From Chloroflexota bacterium (lineage in GTDB: Bacteria; Chloroflexota; Dehalococcoidia; Dehalococcoidales; JACQON01): a stretch of DNA of 64,000 nt. The notes under the pieces are model-generated. The model worked only from the letters and a program-made list of their open reading frames with translations, was not told the DNA's origin and did not search any database. Of this stretch, positions 9,129-14,641 are shown one piece after another; positions within the stretch are counted from its first letter, which is position 1, and every line of letters begins with the position of its first letter. The position numbers and the translations under genes were made by a program. Location of the stretch: the NCBI GenBank assembly GCA_016202545.1, contig JACQON010000002.1, positions 1 through 64,000 of the forward strand, read 5' to 3'.

Positions 9129-10394
9129 ATGAAAGTGCCAAGATGTAAGGGTAGTCGCGACCTCTCGCCCGGTGAGATGGTCAAGTTCCGCCTGATTGAG
9201 AAGGCGTTTAGAGACTGCTGTCTCAAATGGGGATACGGAGAGGTCAGGACGCCAACCCTTGAATACCTCCACCTGTTCACCTCAACCGGAACGCTCACGC
9301 CCAGCCTGCTGAGCAAGGTGTATTCCTTCCTGGACTGGGACGGCTGGAGCGGGGAAAGGGTGGTATTGAGGCCGGATGGCACCATTCCGGTCGCCCGGCT
9401 TTACATTGACAGCATGGAGAAAGAAGGGCTGGCCAAGCTCTTCTATGTCACCAATATCTTCATCTTCGATGAGACGGGAAAGAAGTCCCGCGAAAGATGG
9501 CAGTGCGGAGTTGAGCTTATCGGGGCCGGCTCGCCCCTGGCTGATGCCGAGCTAATATCGCTGGCGCTGGAGATTTTGCACAAGCTCGGCCTGAAGGACA
9601 CAAAGCTGAGGCTATCACACGCCGGCCTGGTCAGAGCAATGCTGGCAAAGCTCGGGCTCAGCCATGACGAACAGACGAAGGTATTTGACCAGGTCATTGA
9701 TGGAGATATACAGGCGCTGGCCGGGCTGAAACCCCGCAATCCTGAGCTGGCAAAGGCTTTATCACTGCTGCTTGACTTGAGAGGCAAGTCATCCGGATTT
9801 TTGAAGAATTTGAAGGCACTGTTTCAGCACAACCTCCCCGAGCTTGAAACGCCCATTGACAACTTCATAAATGTCGCTGAACTCCTCCAGGCCCTGGGCC
9901 AAGATTACCGGATTGATATCGCCTCAGGGAGAGGCTTTGAATACTATACCGGAGTGAACTATCATTTACTCTGCGGTGAGCAGAACGTAGGCGCCGGCGG
10001 CAGGTATGATGACCTTGTCCCCCTGATGGGCGGCGAGGGCATCCCCGCCTCGGGCTTTGCCCTTTACCTTGACCCCTTGATGGATATGGTAAAGCCGGAA
10101 ACCTTCGCCGAGCCTGCAGCGACCAGGGTACAGGTCAGAGTTGAGCCTGGAGATACTGAGACAGCGAAACGGGGTTTTGTTCTGGCCAGCCGACTCCGCG
10201 AGGCCGGATACATAGCTGAGTTAGAGCTTGGTGCTCAGAAACAGGCTGATTTTAACTGGAGCCTTGAGGTCAAAGGCAAGGCACCGCACTTCATCTTGAC
10301 CAACAAAGTCGGACAGAGAAGATTTGAGGCCGGGACCGCTGAGGAAGTCCTGGCATTGCTGAGGAAGAATGTCAATAAGGATAGCGTTGCCTAA
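9129..10394 (+). CDS. hisZ: ATP phosphoribosyltransferase regulatory subunit (HisRS-like)
   Basis: A 421-residue paralogue of histidyl-tRNA synthetase that activates short-form HisG and carries histidine feedback. The class II aaRS core is visible in VVLRPDGTIPVARLY (motif 2 region) and GRGFEYYTGVNY. The segment NVGAGGRYDDLVPLMGG also matches HisRS/HisZ. It is longer than many HisZ proteins because residues 330-415 resemble a HisRS-type C-terminal domain. It is the first gene of the his operon and overlaps hisG by 26 bases. The neighbouring hisG argues for HisZ; a true HisRS is the alternative, but the usual HisRS catalytic signature is weakened. Confidence 0.82.
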   Translation: MKVPRCKGSRDLSPGEMVKFRLIEKAFRDCCLKWGYGEVRTPTLEYLHLFTSTGTLTPSLLSKVYSFLDWDGWSGERVVLRPDGTIPVARLYIDSMEKEGLAKLFYVTNIFIFDETGKKSRERWQCGVELIGAGSPLADAELISLALEILHKLGLKDTKLRLSHAGLVRAMLAKLGLSHDEQTKVFDQVIDGDIQALAGLKPRNPELAKALSLLLDLRGKSSGFLKNLKALFQHNLPELETPIDNFINVAELLQALGQDYRIDIASGRGFEYYTGVNYHLLCGEQNVGAGGRYDDLVPLMGGEGIPASGFALYLDPLMDMVKPETFAEPAATRVQVRVEPGDTETAKRGFVLASRLREAGYIAELELGAQKQADFNWSLEVKGKAPHFILTNKVGQRRFEAGTAEEVLALLRKNVNKDSVA

Positions 10395-11754
10395 AGGACG
10401 CCTTCTAGATGAAACGGCCGCTTTGCTTCACCTGGCAGGCTGGGAGCTAACCGATTACCACCGGGAAGCGCGCTCTTACCACCTTAAGTCCCGAAGGTTC
10501 CCTGCCCTCTGCCTCCGGGTGTTCCATGAAAAGGACATCCCCATTCAGGTGGCGGTGGGAAACTACGACCTGGGGATTTGCGGGCTGGATTGGGTGGAGG
10601 AGCTTCTGGCCAAGTATCCCACCAGCGCCCTGGTCAAGGTACAGGACCTGGGGTACAACATGGGCAGCCTTTACGCAGCCGCCAGCAAGTCGGCGAGGAT
10701 GACCATGGAGGGACTGCGGACCGAGAAGTCGGTCATCCGCCTGGCCAGCGAATATCCATATCTGGCTGAGTCCTTCGCCCTCGGTCTGCGACTGAGGCAG
10801 TTCCGCATCTTCCCGCTGTGGGGAGCGGCTGAGGTCTATCCGCCGGAAAGCGCCGACCTCACGCTGGTCCGGGCCGGAACCGAGGCTGAACTCTCCAGCT
10901 ACGACCTGGCCCCGATAAACAAGGTGCTCGATTTTTCCGCTTTCCTGATAGCCAACCAGACTAGCTGGGAAAAGAAGGACATGGGAGAGGTACTGGACTC
11001 GCTCGGAGATAAGATGCCGGCCAGATTTCCATCTCCGGCAAAGCCAGCGGCGCTCGGCACGCCTGGCGAACAACCCCGCGCTGGAACTGACGAAGACGCG
11101 GTTTGGCTGGCCCTGCCTGACGGACACCAGCAGCCACCCACACTGGAACTGCTGCGAAAGGCCGGCATCCATATTGACGATTATCCCTCGCCGACGGGAA
11201 ACCGCCGTCCGCGGGTCAACCTGCCCGGCACCCTGGTCAAGACGGTCCGGCCACAGGACATGCCGCTACAGGTGGCCAATGGCAACTTTGACCTGGCTAT
11301 CACCGGACGGGACTGGCTCCTGGAGCACCTGTACCAGTTTCCGTCCAGCCCGGCGGCGGAGCTTGCTGACCTCAAGTTTGGCAAGGTGAAAATAGCGGCT
11401 GTAATAAGCAAAGAGCTATCCATGGCTGATGTCCACAGCCTGGCGCCGCTCAGGATAGCTTCAGAATACGTGAATATCGCTGATAAATATGCCAGGGACA
11501 ACCACCTCGGGCCTTACCGTATTATTCCCACCTGGGGCGCCAGCGAGGCCTTTGTCCCTGAAGACGCTGACCTGCTGATTGAGAACGCCCAGACAGGGCG
11601 GACTATAGCCCGGCATAACCTGAAGATAACCGATGTCCTCTTCGAATCGACAGCCTGCCTCATCGGCGCGAAGAGCGGCACGTACCGCCCCGCCAAATCC
11701 AGGCGGATAGAAAATATCGTCAACACACTGCGGGCGGCGGTCGAGGATGCCTGA
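10369..11754 (+). CDS. hisG: ATP phosphoribosyltransferase, tandem fusion of two HisG domains
   Basis: Catalyses the first step of histidine synthesis, joining ATP and PRPP. The protein is 461 residues, about twice the short HisG used with HisZ, because it contains two homologous copies. Copy 1 (residues 1-205) has IALPKGRL, GNYDLGICGLDW and RLASEYPYL. Copy 2 (residues 244-461) has LALPDGHQ, RPQDMPLQVANGNFDLAITG, RIASEYVNIADKY and ADLLIENAQTGRT. The copies have lost different motifs: copy 1 has AGTE (169-172) where copy 2 keeps the PRPP-loop TGRT (409-412), while copy 2 has PDGH (250-253) in place of PKGR (8-11). A Pro/Ala-rich linker (205-243) joins them. It overlaps hisZ and hisD. Confidence 0.9.
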   Translation: MSIRIALPKGRLLDETAALLHLAGWELTDYHREARSYHLKSRRFPALCLRVFHEKDIPIQVAVGNYDLGICGLDWVEELLAKYPTSALVKVQDLGYNMGSLYAAASKSARMTMEGLRTEKSVIRLASEYPYLAESFALGLRLRQFRIFPLWGAAEVYPPESADLTLVRAGTEAELSSYDLAPINKVLDFSAFLIANQTSWEKKDMGEVLDSLGDKMPARFPSPAKPAALGTPGEQPRAGTDEDAVWLALPDGHQQPPTLELLRKAGIHIDDYPSPTGNRRPRVNLPGTLVKTVRPQDMPLQVANGNFDLAITGRDWLLEHLYQFPSSPAAELADLKFGKVKIAAVISKELSMADVHSLAPLRIASEYVNIADKYARDNHLGPYRIIPTWGASEAFVPEDADLLIENAQTGRTIARHNLKITDVLFESTACLIGAKSGTYRPAKSRRIENIVNTLRAAVEDA

Positions 11755-13057
11755 AGTGAAGATAATCGAGGGCTTCCAGGCGGCAAAGAGGGTATTATCA
11801 AGGCAAGGTCCGGCACAAGCGACGCTTGAAGCTGATGACCAGATTATCAAAAAAGTGGCGCGAATTATAAAAGGGGTGCGTAAGCGGGGAGATGCCTCTC
11901 TCCTGTATTACACTCGGAAGTATGATAGGGTTAGGCTCACCCCGTCTTCACTGGAAGTAACCAAAGAACTGATAAGCAAGGCTTACGATAAGGTAGATTC
12001 CGAACTGGTATCAGCCCTCAAGCTGGCCGCCGCACGCATCCGTTCCTTCCATCTTTCCCAGAAAGACAGCCTCTGGCGCACCGCCAGCGGGCAGGGATGG
12101 CTGGCGCGCCCGCTGTCCCGCGTTGGCCTTTACGTACCTGGCGGCACCGCCAGCTACCCGTCAACGGTGCTGATGACGGCTATCCCGGCTAAGGTTGCCG
12201 GAGTCAAAGAGGTTATCGTGGTCACACCGCCGAGGGAAAACGAGAGGAAAAACGGATATGTATCCCCGGCAACGCTAGTGGCCGCTGATATTGCCGGGGT
12301 CGACCGCGTCTTTTCTATTGGCGGCGCCCAGGCGGTGGCTGCCTTAGCCTATGGCACTAAATCCATTCCGCCTGTAGATAAGATTTGCGGCCCGGGTAAT
12401 ATTTACGTCACTCTGGCGAAGAAGATGGTCTATGGAGTAGTTGGTATTGATGGGATTTTCGGGACAAGCGAGGTATTAATCATCGCCGATGAAACGGCCA
12501 ATCCCAGGTATTGTGCCGCCGACCTCCTCGCCCAGGCTGAGCACGACCCCCTCGCCTCGGCCATCCTGATAACCCCCTCACCGCGGCTGGCCCATGAGGT
12601 CAACCGAGAGGTCGAGCGGCAGCTATCAGTCCTGAAGCGCCAGGCCATCGCCTCGGAATCGCTGGCCAGCAGGGGCAAGATAGCATTGGTCAGCAGCCTG
12701 GAGGAGGCCATAGAGTTGGCCAACCTCTACGCCCCGGAGCACCTCTGCCTGATGATAACAGAGGCCGCTTCCCGCGTTGATGCTGTCACCAATGCCGGCT
12801 GTATATTCATCGGCCAGAACTCAAGCGTGGCCATGGGCGACTACATCGCCGGACCGAGCCATGTCCTGCCCACCGGGGGCACCGCCCGCTTCGGCTCCCC
12901 GCTAAATGTGAGCGATTTCGTCAAGCTCACCAGCCTGGTAGCCATAGACGAAGCCAACTTGAAGGAACTGGGCCCGGCGGCGGCAACCATTGCCAGAGCT
13001 GAGGGGCTTGAGGCACACGCCCTGGCCGTGGAAAAGCGCCTGGAAGCCAGCCGCTAG
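11747..13057 (+). CDS. hisD: Histidinol dehydrogenase
   Basis: A 436-residue zinc enzyme that performs the two final NAD-dependent oxidations from L-histidinol to histidine. Family signatures include YVPGGTASYPSTVLM, the long conserved stretch KICGPGNIYVTLAKK, and AEHDPLASAILIT with the catalytic/zinc histidine region. YAPEHLCLM and GPSHVLPTGGTARF follow near the C-terminus. Length is normal for the family. The ATG overlaps the hisG stop by 8 bases, indicating translational coupling. Confidence 0.97.
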   Translation: MPEVKIIEGFQAAKRVLSRQGPAQATLEADDQIIKKVARIIKGVRKRGDASLLYYTRKYDRVRLTPSSLEVTKELISKAYDKVDSELVSALKLAAARIRSFHLSQKDSLWRTASGQGWLARPLSRVGLYVPGGTASYPSTVLMTAIPAKVAGVKEVIVVTPPRENERKNGYVSPATLVAADIAGVDRVFSIGGAQAVAALAYGTKSIPPVDKICGPGNIYVTLAKKMVYGVVGIDGIFGTSEVLIIADETANPRYCAADLLAQAEHDPLASAILITPSPRLAHEVNREVERQLSVLKRQAIASESLASRGKIALVSSLEEAIELANLYAPEHLCLMITEAASRVDAVTNAGCIFIGQNSSVAMGDYIAGPSHVLPTGGTARFGSPLNVSDFVKLTSLVAIDEANLKELGPAAATIARAEGLEAHALAVEKRLEASR

Positions 13058-13173: not shown

Positions 13174-13455
13174 ATGAAAGTAAAGGTAAAGTTCTTCCTG
13201 ACCTTCAAAACTATCTTCGAGCAGACCGAAGCGGAAGTCGAGCTAAAAGACGGGCACAAGGTGAAAGACCTGCTGGAGATTCTATGCGGTTCAAATGAGA
13301 AACGCCAGAAAGCGGTATTCGAACCATCAGGCGCCCTGAGGCCAACGATAAACGTCCTGAGGAACGGCCAGCACATAGATTTCCTGGGCGGGCTACAGGC
13401 AGAGCTTGGGGATGGAGATGCTATCGCCATATTCCCTCCCATGGCTGGCGGCTGA
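13174..13455 (+). CDS. MoaD/ThiS-family ubiquitin-like sulfur carrier
   Basis: A 93-residue beta-grasp protein ending in the diglycine tail PPMAGG, which is adenylated and thiocarboxylated in MoaD, ThiS and related carriers. The core VKVKFFLTFKTIFEQTEAEVEL and the LGDGDAIAIFPP strand before the tail fit MoaD. It lies between hisD and hisC on the same strand, 117 bp after hisD, with GGGAGG just before the ATG. No E1-like MoeB/ThiF partner or molybdopterin gene is in the window, so the acceptor pathway (molybdopterin, thiamin, tRNA or amino-acid sulfur) is unknown. Confidence 0.85.
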   Translation: MKVKVKFFLTFKTIFEQTEAEVELKDGHKVKDLLEILCGSNEKRQKAVFEPSGALRPTINVLRNGQHIDFLGGLQAELGDGDAIAIFPPMAGG

Positions 13456-13527: not shown

Positions 13528-13543
13528 GAGAGGTAAAGACATT
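13528..13543 (+). promoter_or_regulatory. Ribosome site and probable ATT start of hisC
   Basis: GAGAGG (13528-13533) is followed after 7 bases by ATT at 13541. The reading frame is open back to 13475 but contains no ATG, GTG or TTG before conserved HisC sequence; a CTG at 13526 is the only near-alternative and lies inside the Shine-Dalgarno region. Confidence 0.6.
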
Positions 13544-14641
13544 TCTGAAAGTGCCGGCATCGAGCGGTTAATCAGGAGTCACCTGGCTTCGCTTGATGGC
13601 TATACCGCCAGCACGCCGCCGGAAGCCCTGGCGAGAAAAACCAGGATTTCCGCGGAGCAGGTCATCAAGCTTGATGCCAATGAGAACCCCTACGGCTGCT
13701 CGCCGAGAGTGAGCCAGGCTTTAGCCGCTCACTCTCATTTCAATATCTACCCCGATTCAGAGCAGACCGAACTGAGGGAACTGCTACAGCAATATACCGG
13801 CGTCGGCGTCGAGCACATCGTCGCCGGCGGCGGCAGCAACCAGCTAATAGACCTGCTGCTCCACCTCTTCGTAGAGCCGGGCGATGAGGTGCTCAACTTT
13901 GTCCCCACCTTTGACATGTTCCGTTTCAGCACCCAGATTAACGGCGGCAAGGTGGTCGAGGTGGTCAGGGATGAAAAGTACGCCATCGACGTGAAGGCGG
14001 CCAAATCAGCCATCAGCAGCCGGACCAAGCTGATATTCCTGGCCAGTCCCAATAGCCCCACCGGGAATATGACTGCGGAGGATGACATACTGGAGATAGC
14101 TGACACCGGCCTGCCTCTGGTGATAGACGAAGCTTACTACGAATTCAGCGGGCAAACGGTGACGCCACTGCTCAAGCGGTATAAAAACCTGATGGTGCTG
14201 CGCACGTTCAGCAAATGGGCCGGGCTGGCCGGATTGCGGGTGGGGTACGGCATCTTCCCGCCCAGAATTGCCGCATACCTGCACCAGATAAAGGTGCCAT
14301 ATAACGTGAATGCGGCCGCCATAGTCGCAGTCAGGGAATCGCTAAGGGATATTGACTATCTGCGGGACAAGGTAAAGCTCATCATTGCCGAAAGGGAGCG
14401 GCTTTTCGGCGAACTACAGAAGCTGAAGTGGTTAAAACCTTTTCCGTCACGAGCGAATTTTATTTTCTGCTCGGTCCTGGGCAAGGCCAGCGAGCTTCAC
14501 CGGCAGTTGCAGGCCAGGGGCATACTGGTCCGGTATTTTGACCGGCCCCTGCTGAGGGACGCCATCCGCATCAGCGTGGGCAAGCCGGAGCACACTGACG
14601 CCCTGCTCAAAGCGCTCCGGGAGATAGAGGCTGCTTATTAG
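13541..14641 (+). CDS. hisC: Histidinol-phosphate aminotransferase, probable ATT start
   Basis: A PLP enzyme converting imidazole-acetol phosphate to histidinol phosphate. The ORF track starts at an internal GTG (13709), but conserved sequence continues upstream in frame: IERLIRSHLASLDGY, then IKLDANENPYGCSPRV, the substrate-binding N-terminal motif. From ATT 13541 the protein is 366 residues, normal for HisC; the GTG version would lose that motif. Further signatures are LASPNSPTGN, DEAYYEF and TFSKWAGLAGLRVGYG with the PLP lysine. A sequencing error or RNA-level start choice is possible. It precedes hisB. Confidence 0.92.
   Translation: MSESAGIERLIRSHLASLDGYTASTPPEALARKTRISAEQVIKLDANENPYGCSPRVSQALAAHSHFNIYPDSEQTELRELLQQYTGVGVEHIVAGGGSNQLIDLLLHLFVEPGDEVLNFVPTFDMFRFSTQINGGKVVEVVRDEKYAIDVKAAKSAISSRTKLIFLASPNSPTGNMTAEDDILEIADTGLPLVIDEAYYEFSGQTVTPLLKRYKNLMVLRTFSKWAGLAGLRVGYGIFPPRIAAYLHQIKVPYNVNAAAIVAVRESLRDIDYLRDKVKLIIAERERLFGELQKLKWLKPFPSRANFIFCSVLGKASELHRQLQARGILVRYFDRPLLRDAIRISVGKPEHTDALLKALREIEAAY

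Follow-up and report, generated by a model that had tools for sequence, protein, structure and literature searches.

HisG, the ATP phosphoribosyltransferase that catalyses the first, committed step of histidine synthesis, is known in two forms. In the short form (HisG_S), found for example in Psychrobacter arcticus, Acinetobacter baumannii, Lactococcus lactis and Thermotoga maritima, a single chain of ~210-230 residues forms a homodimer with two sites; its operon encodes a second protein, HisZ, and there is no HisG_C domain. In the assembled short-form enzyme, a hetero-octamer, HisG dimers sit on a HisZ tetramer. The long form (HisG_L) of E. coli, Mycobacterium tuberculosis and Campylobacter jejuni has the same catalytic domain and a C-terminal HisG_C. 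In the P. arcticus enzyme (PaHisGS), Arg56 crosses the dimer interface to the PRPP pyrophosphate in the site of the other subunit, and R56K is poorly active (PMC9734150). Arg32, the arginine of the PKGR motif, helps the leaving group, and dimer crossing is described for Arg56 only, not for Arg32 (PMC9734150).

Several other his genes, hisA/hisF, hisB and hisD, are termed "elongated", having arisen by tandem duplication and divergence, with both copies fused into a single gene. These events are proposed to be pre-LUCA and universal; in hisD one half keeps one binding function. A 2020 review lists the other his enzymes as lacking sequence evidence of internal repetition (PMC7284861), and publications that treat the fusion and elongation of his genes do not count hisG with those that are fused or repeated internally (PMC1963479, PMC7284861). 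Our literature search for fused, tandem or duplicated HisG likewise found nothing relevant, in agreement with an earlier note on this DNA, whose author, a model that read the sequence without database searches, knew of no HisG of such architecture. Some enzymes in general combine an active subunit or domain with a pseudo-enzyme one, the degenerate copy being kept under selection. The HisG described here likewise pairs a catalytic with a degenerate copy, and for HisG no such pair was found described in the literature searched.

The protein is encoded in the window, a 64,000-nucleotide stretch of contig JACQON010000002.1 from a bacterium of the class Dehalococcoidia (Chloroflexota). It resembles the short-form enzymes in its HisG fold, in the presence of a hisZ-like gene in the operon, in the absence of HisG_C and in the active-site set, which its second half shares with them. 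It differs from them in being a 461-residue chain of two unequal fused domains with one intact site. Its catalytic domain is also common to the long form, but its extra length is a second catalytic-type domain, not HisG_C.

The two-domain hisG gene and its neighbours

The genes and protein regions concerned are as follows, all on the + strand:

9129..10394, +, hisZ-like gene for a putative regulatory partner of 421 aa (Pfam tRNA-synt_His), overlapping hisG by 26 bases
10369..11754, +, two-domain hisG, 461 aa, ATG start, single ORF
10369..11004, +, half A, residues 1-212, HisG fold with a degenerate active site
11005..11091, +, linker, residues 213-241, with predicted disorder at 220-239 (AlphaFold2 pLDDT <50)
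11092..11751, +, half B, residues 242-461, HisG domain with an intact catalytic site
11747..13057, +, hisD (Pfam Histidinol_dh, E 4.8e-161), overlapping the hisG stop

In profile searches PF01634 and TIGR00070 each matched the protein twice, and halves A and B, taken singly, both exceeded the curated cut-off of TIGR00070 (115 and 116 bits, respectively, against 75.75). Aligned to each other, the halves share 31% identity across 197 residues (E 2e-31), which is far above chance and bears out the tandem duplication of HisG claimed in the earlier note. Family models label the protein plain "ATP phosphoribosyltransferase", which hides its architecture. The two halves are the only PF01634 matches in the window genome, a draft of 34 contigs that is 88% complete, and HisG is thus single-copy there.

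AlphaFold2 predicted a HisG fold for both halves of the window protein (pLDDT 86.8, pTM 0.83) and of a Dehalococcoides-like homologue from genome G098 (pLDDT 90.9, pTM 0.88), only the linker being disordered in both models. The best solved match found by Foldseek was P. arcticus HisG, over one half (TM 0.87 by target). High pTM across the disordered linker suggests that the modelled halves have a defined packing. No homologue with a second half lacking the HisG fold was found.

In 117 of 121 loci the gene immediately before the fused hisG, and on its strand, encodes a HisZ homologue. In the remaining four a contig end comes within 275 bases of the start, and the pairing with HisZ pointed out in the earlier note therefore holds in all 117 loci with room for it. 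The product of the hisZ-like gene in the window scored 218 bits with TIGR00443 (cut-off 271.65) and 216 with the HisS model TIGR00442 (cut-off 286.75), reaching neither. Since a second HisS-like gene is present in the window genome (G000:C1), the operon copy is most likely HisZ. A profile search for HisG_C (PF08029) found none in the window genome (G000) or in G098; the absence of this domain from the window genome, together with the adjacent hisZ-like gene, points to a short-form system.

Some further observations concern these gene neighbourhoods. At L144 (G028:C103, 3243-5754) a long-form HisG with HisG_C directly follows a HisZ/HisS-like gene, and G028 has another HisS-like gene elsewhere. 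L145, L147-L151, L155 and L156 resemble L144; HisZ beside HisG_L would be unusual. In the window, a small MoaD/SAMP1-like protein of ubiquitin fold (13174-13455, +; NF041918, above cut-off) is encoded between hisD and hisC. The hisC gene (13541-14641, +) lacks the usual start codon. The open frame and its homology extend back to an ATT at 13541 (IleSerGluSerAlaGly), where relatives have Met, and GAGAGG precedes it; an ATT start, or else a sequence error, is likely. Gene callers would begin hisC at the GTG at 13709, with the loss of ~56 residues.

Distribution and descent

A search of GTDB contigs recovered 80 loci, every one with both halves in one long frame, with the motif pattern of the window and with a Chloroflexota or Dehalococcoidia label. 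HisG was present in 221 of the 245 Dehalococcoidia genomes sampled; by hand count about 145 of these have the two-half form (~two thirds) and about 73 only single-domain HisG. In the window's own order all 19 genomes of this sample carry the two-half form. The distribution survey covered mainly Chloroflexota, and in its 400-genome sample of the phylum no adjacent pair of HisG domains was seen outside Dehalococcoidia; where genomes from other classes gave two HisG matches, these belonged to separate paralogues or to fragments of a single interrupted gene. One genome, G118, carries a fused two-domain HisG with HisZ plus a separate long-form HisG (L103, L104).

The family apparently includes the dechlorinator Dehalococcoides. 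Three genomes, G013, G049 and G098, each assembled as one contig of 1.36-1.52 Mb, gave 19-28 matches to reductive dehalogenases, as expected of that genus, and the two-half protein is the sole HisG in these Dehalococcoides-like genomes. Dehalococcoides mccartyi is cited as growing in minimal medium, with the strain printed as 915 (PMC5764234). Given this reported growth, the sole HisG of the species should be functional.

In a maximum-likelihood tree of 113 domains, the A halves, the B halves and the single-domain HisGs each fell on one side of a branch, with support of 98-100 in a bootstrap that had not fully settled. This separation into three groups indicates that the duplication happened once, before the family diversified. 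The two-half HisG thus shares tandem duplication, divergence and fusion with the elongated his genes, but it is lineage-restricted and the identity between its halves is still readily visible. Values of dN/dS in close pairs are mostly about 0.02-0.2 and are alike between the halves, from which it follows that half A is maintained.

Two genomes encode the halves separately: in G057 the two genes meet at TGATG, and in G041 they overlap through a GTG start, with no linker. They stand at different places in the tree and so look like two fissions. These split genes suggest that the halves can associate when not covalently linked, although the split in G057 may be a frame error of a draft genome. 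These separate, overlapping half-genes lie at L114 (3694-5450) and L143 (2328-3693), in two distant lineages.

Division of active-site residues between the halves

The halves of 117 fused proteins and 23 single-domain HisGs were aligned to P. arcticus HisG_S as reference, and residues outside the window protein are numbered below as in PaHisGS. The sites of interest in the window gene are:

10390..10401, +, PKGR of half A, residues 8-11
10471..10473, +, R35 of half A, equivalent to PaHisGS Arg56
10525..10527, +, H53 of half A, at the place of PaHisGS Arg73 (ATP gamma-phosphate)
10870..10899, +, half A residues 168-177, a degenerate counterpart of the PRPP loop without conservation
11116..11127, +, PDGH of half B, residues 250-253
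11200..11211, +, NRRP of half B, residues 278-281, just past the Arg56 place
11248..11250, +, R294 of half B, equivalent to PaHisGS Arg73
11581..11583, +, E405 of half B, equivalent to PaHisGS Asp176
11593..11604, +, TGRT of half B, the PRPP loop, residues 409-412

The two halves differ sharply at the catalytic positions. Arg73 is present in 21/117 A halves and 115/116 B halves, and an acidic residue (D or E) at position 176 in 0/117 and 116/116. In the PRPP loop, T180 is kept in 22/112 A halves, G181 in 18/106 and T183 in 9/114, each against 116/116 B halves (T or S at 183); S198 is kept in 33/117 and 116/116, respectively. The full set of Arg73, an acid at 176, T/S180, G181 and T/S183 is intact in 0/117 A halves, 114/117 B halves and 22/23 single-domain HisGs, and no homologue with both halves intact was found. 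Given this loss in A and retention in B, binding of PRPP and ATP in the known manner is expected of half B and not of half A. As judged from these residues, half A is broken at many sites, and half B alone is a catalytic unit that is otherwise complete but has D and H in place of the canonical K30 and R32, replacements that may bear on catalysis. The earlier note had placed PKGR, PDGH and TGRT correctly; its "AGTE" for the PRPP loop of half A was off by two residues, the residues aligned to TGxT being T171-E172-A173-E174, and the loop is degenerate under either alignment.

The arginine that crosses the dimer has the opposite distribution. The Arg56 place holds Arg in 104/117 A halves, in 1/109 B halves and in 21/21 single-domain HisGs. 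In half A, R35 is replaced by G in one subclade and by K in the Dehalococcoides-like genomes. Two nearly invariant arginines of half B, R279 (100/117) and R280 (111/117), sit 2-3 residues beyond the Arg56 place and may provide a shifted crossing arginine. With a single site, in half B, only half A would have to supply a crossing arginine, and the Arg56 pattern agrees with this. The reciprocal pattern that the sequences bear out is the retention of this arginine in A and its apparent loss in B, a loss that is not certain with R279-R280 so close by.

Taken together, the site asymmetry between the halves, the Arg56 pattern, the single duplication and the selection on both halves make the obligate pseudo-dimer, as proposed in the earlier note, the best reading. 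The protein is probably an ATP phosphoribosyltransferase in which the homodimer has become a covalent pseudo-heterodimer, with one active site, in B, completed by half A. The halves would pack head-to-tail as in the HisG dimer. Half B only would bind PRPP and ATP and make PR-ATP, half A serving as its non-catalytic dimer partner, and R35 of half A would project into the active site of B and stabilise the leaving pyrophosphate. HisZ would activate the complex and mediate histidine feedback as in other short-form enzymes, and there would be one active site per chain, compared with two in the normal HisG dimer. Comparison of the sequences shows a single ancient duplication with fusion, loss of the catalytic set in A and its retention in B, similar purifying selection on both halves and constant linkage with HisZ.

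Alternative readings

It is doubtful, but worth considering, that half A is mainly regulatory or a dock for HisZ, sensing histidine or a nucleotide in its old cleft, for example, and taking no catalytic part at site B. Half A has invariant residues of its own (Y66, D56, Q60, E78 and R141, each in 117/117), some of them unlike those of single-domain HisGs; R35 is replaced in some lineages and HisZ is always linked. However, Arg56 is among the best-kept canonical catalytic residues in half A, whose own pocket is lost, and histidine feedback is normally handled by HisZ.

Rather less likely is the version favoured in the earlier note, a composite site with PKGR supplied in trans by half A and TGRT by half B. 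The KG pair is found in 92/117 A halves and in no B half, D251, G252 and H253 of half B are invariant (116/116), and the P. arcticus Arg32 aids the leaving group (PMC9734150). Yet PKGR is not universal among two-half HisGs (K in 92/117 A halves, R in 72/117). In a deep clade it has become TGD, AGD or RGD, and half B there still has DGH. Nor is a canonical motif general among stand-alone enzymes. The single-domain, long-form HisGs that branch first in the single-domain group read PKGH (L137) and PIGH (L152), the latter being the only HisG of its genome, G053, and other stand-alone Chloroflexota HisGs read PTGV or SDGE at this place. Since they too vary there, PDGH is better regarded as a variant with an otherwise intact site than as a loss that needs rescue; moreover, the residue described as crossing the dimer is Arg56, not Arg32. 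PKGR/PDGH was thus rejected as the central complementation, and the complementary loss of PKGR and TGxT did not hold up. The idea that each half supplies what the other lost survives in the crossing arginine, kept in A and apparently lost in B.

That two active enzymes were joined for the sake of stability, as the scores of both halves above the TIGR00070 cut-off might suggest, is highly improbable and was rejected, since no A half combines the PRPP loop with the ATP arginine and the acidic residue. An assembly artefact, chimera or pseudogene, conceivable in a draft genome, is scarcely credible, since the architecture and motif pattern recur in 80 independent GTDB loci, the same architecture is found in complete single-contig genomes, and dN/dS is low.

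The preferred reading, a catalytic half B completed by half A, can be extended to the family with somewhat less assurance. On balance, it seems that much of a bacterial class has rebuilt this committed enzyme so that a catalytic HisG and a pseudo-HisG form an obligate heterodimer, in most cases within one chain and in some as the products of two overlapping genes. Each such dimer would have one cross-completed site, and the ratio of HisG to HisZ would probably be new. HisG is a textbook case of an allosteric enzyme, for which the need for two sites in the dimer and the role of the cross-dimer arginine are under active study. With these two roles separated onto two halves of one chain, each would be mutable on its own. 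Dehalococcoides also appears to have no HisG other than the two-half form.
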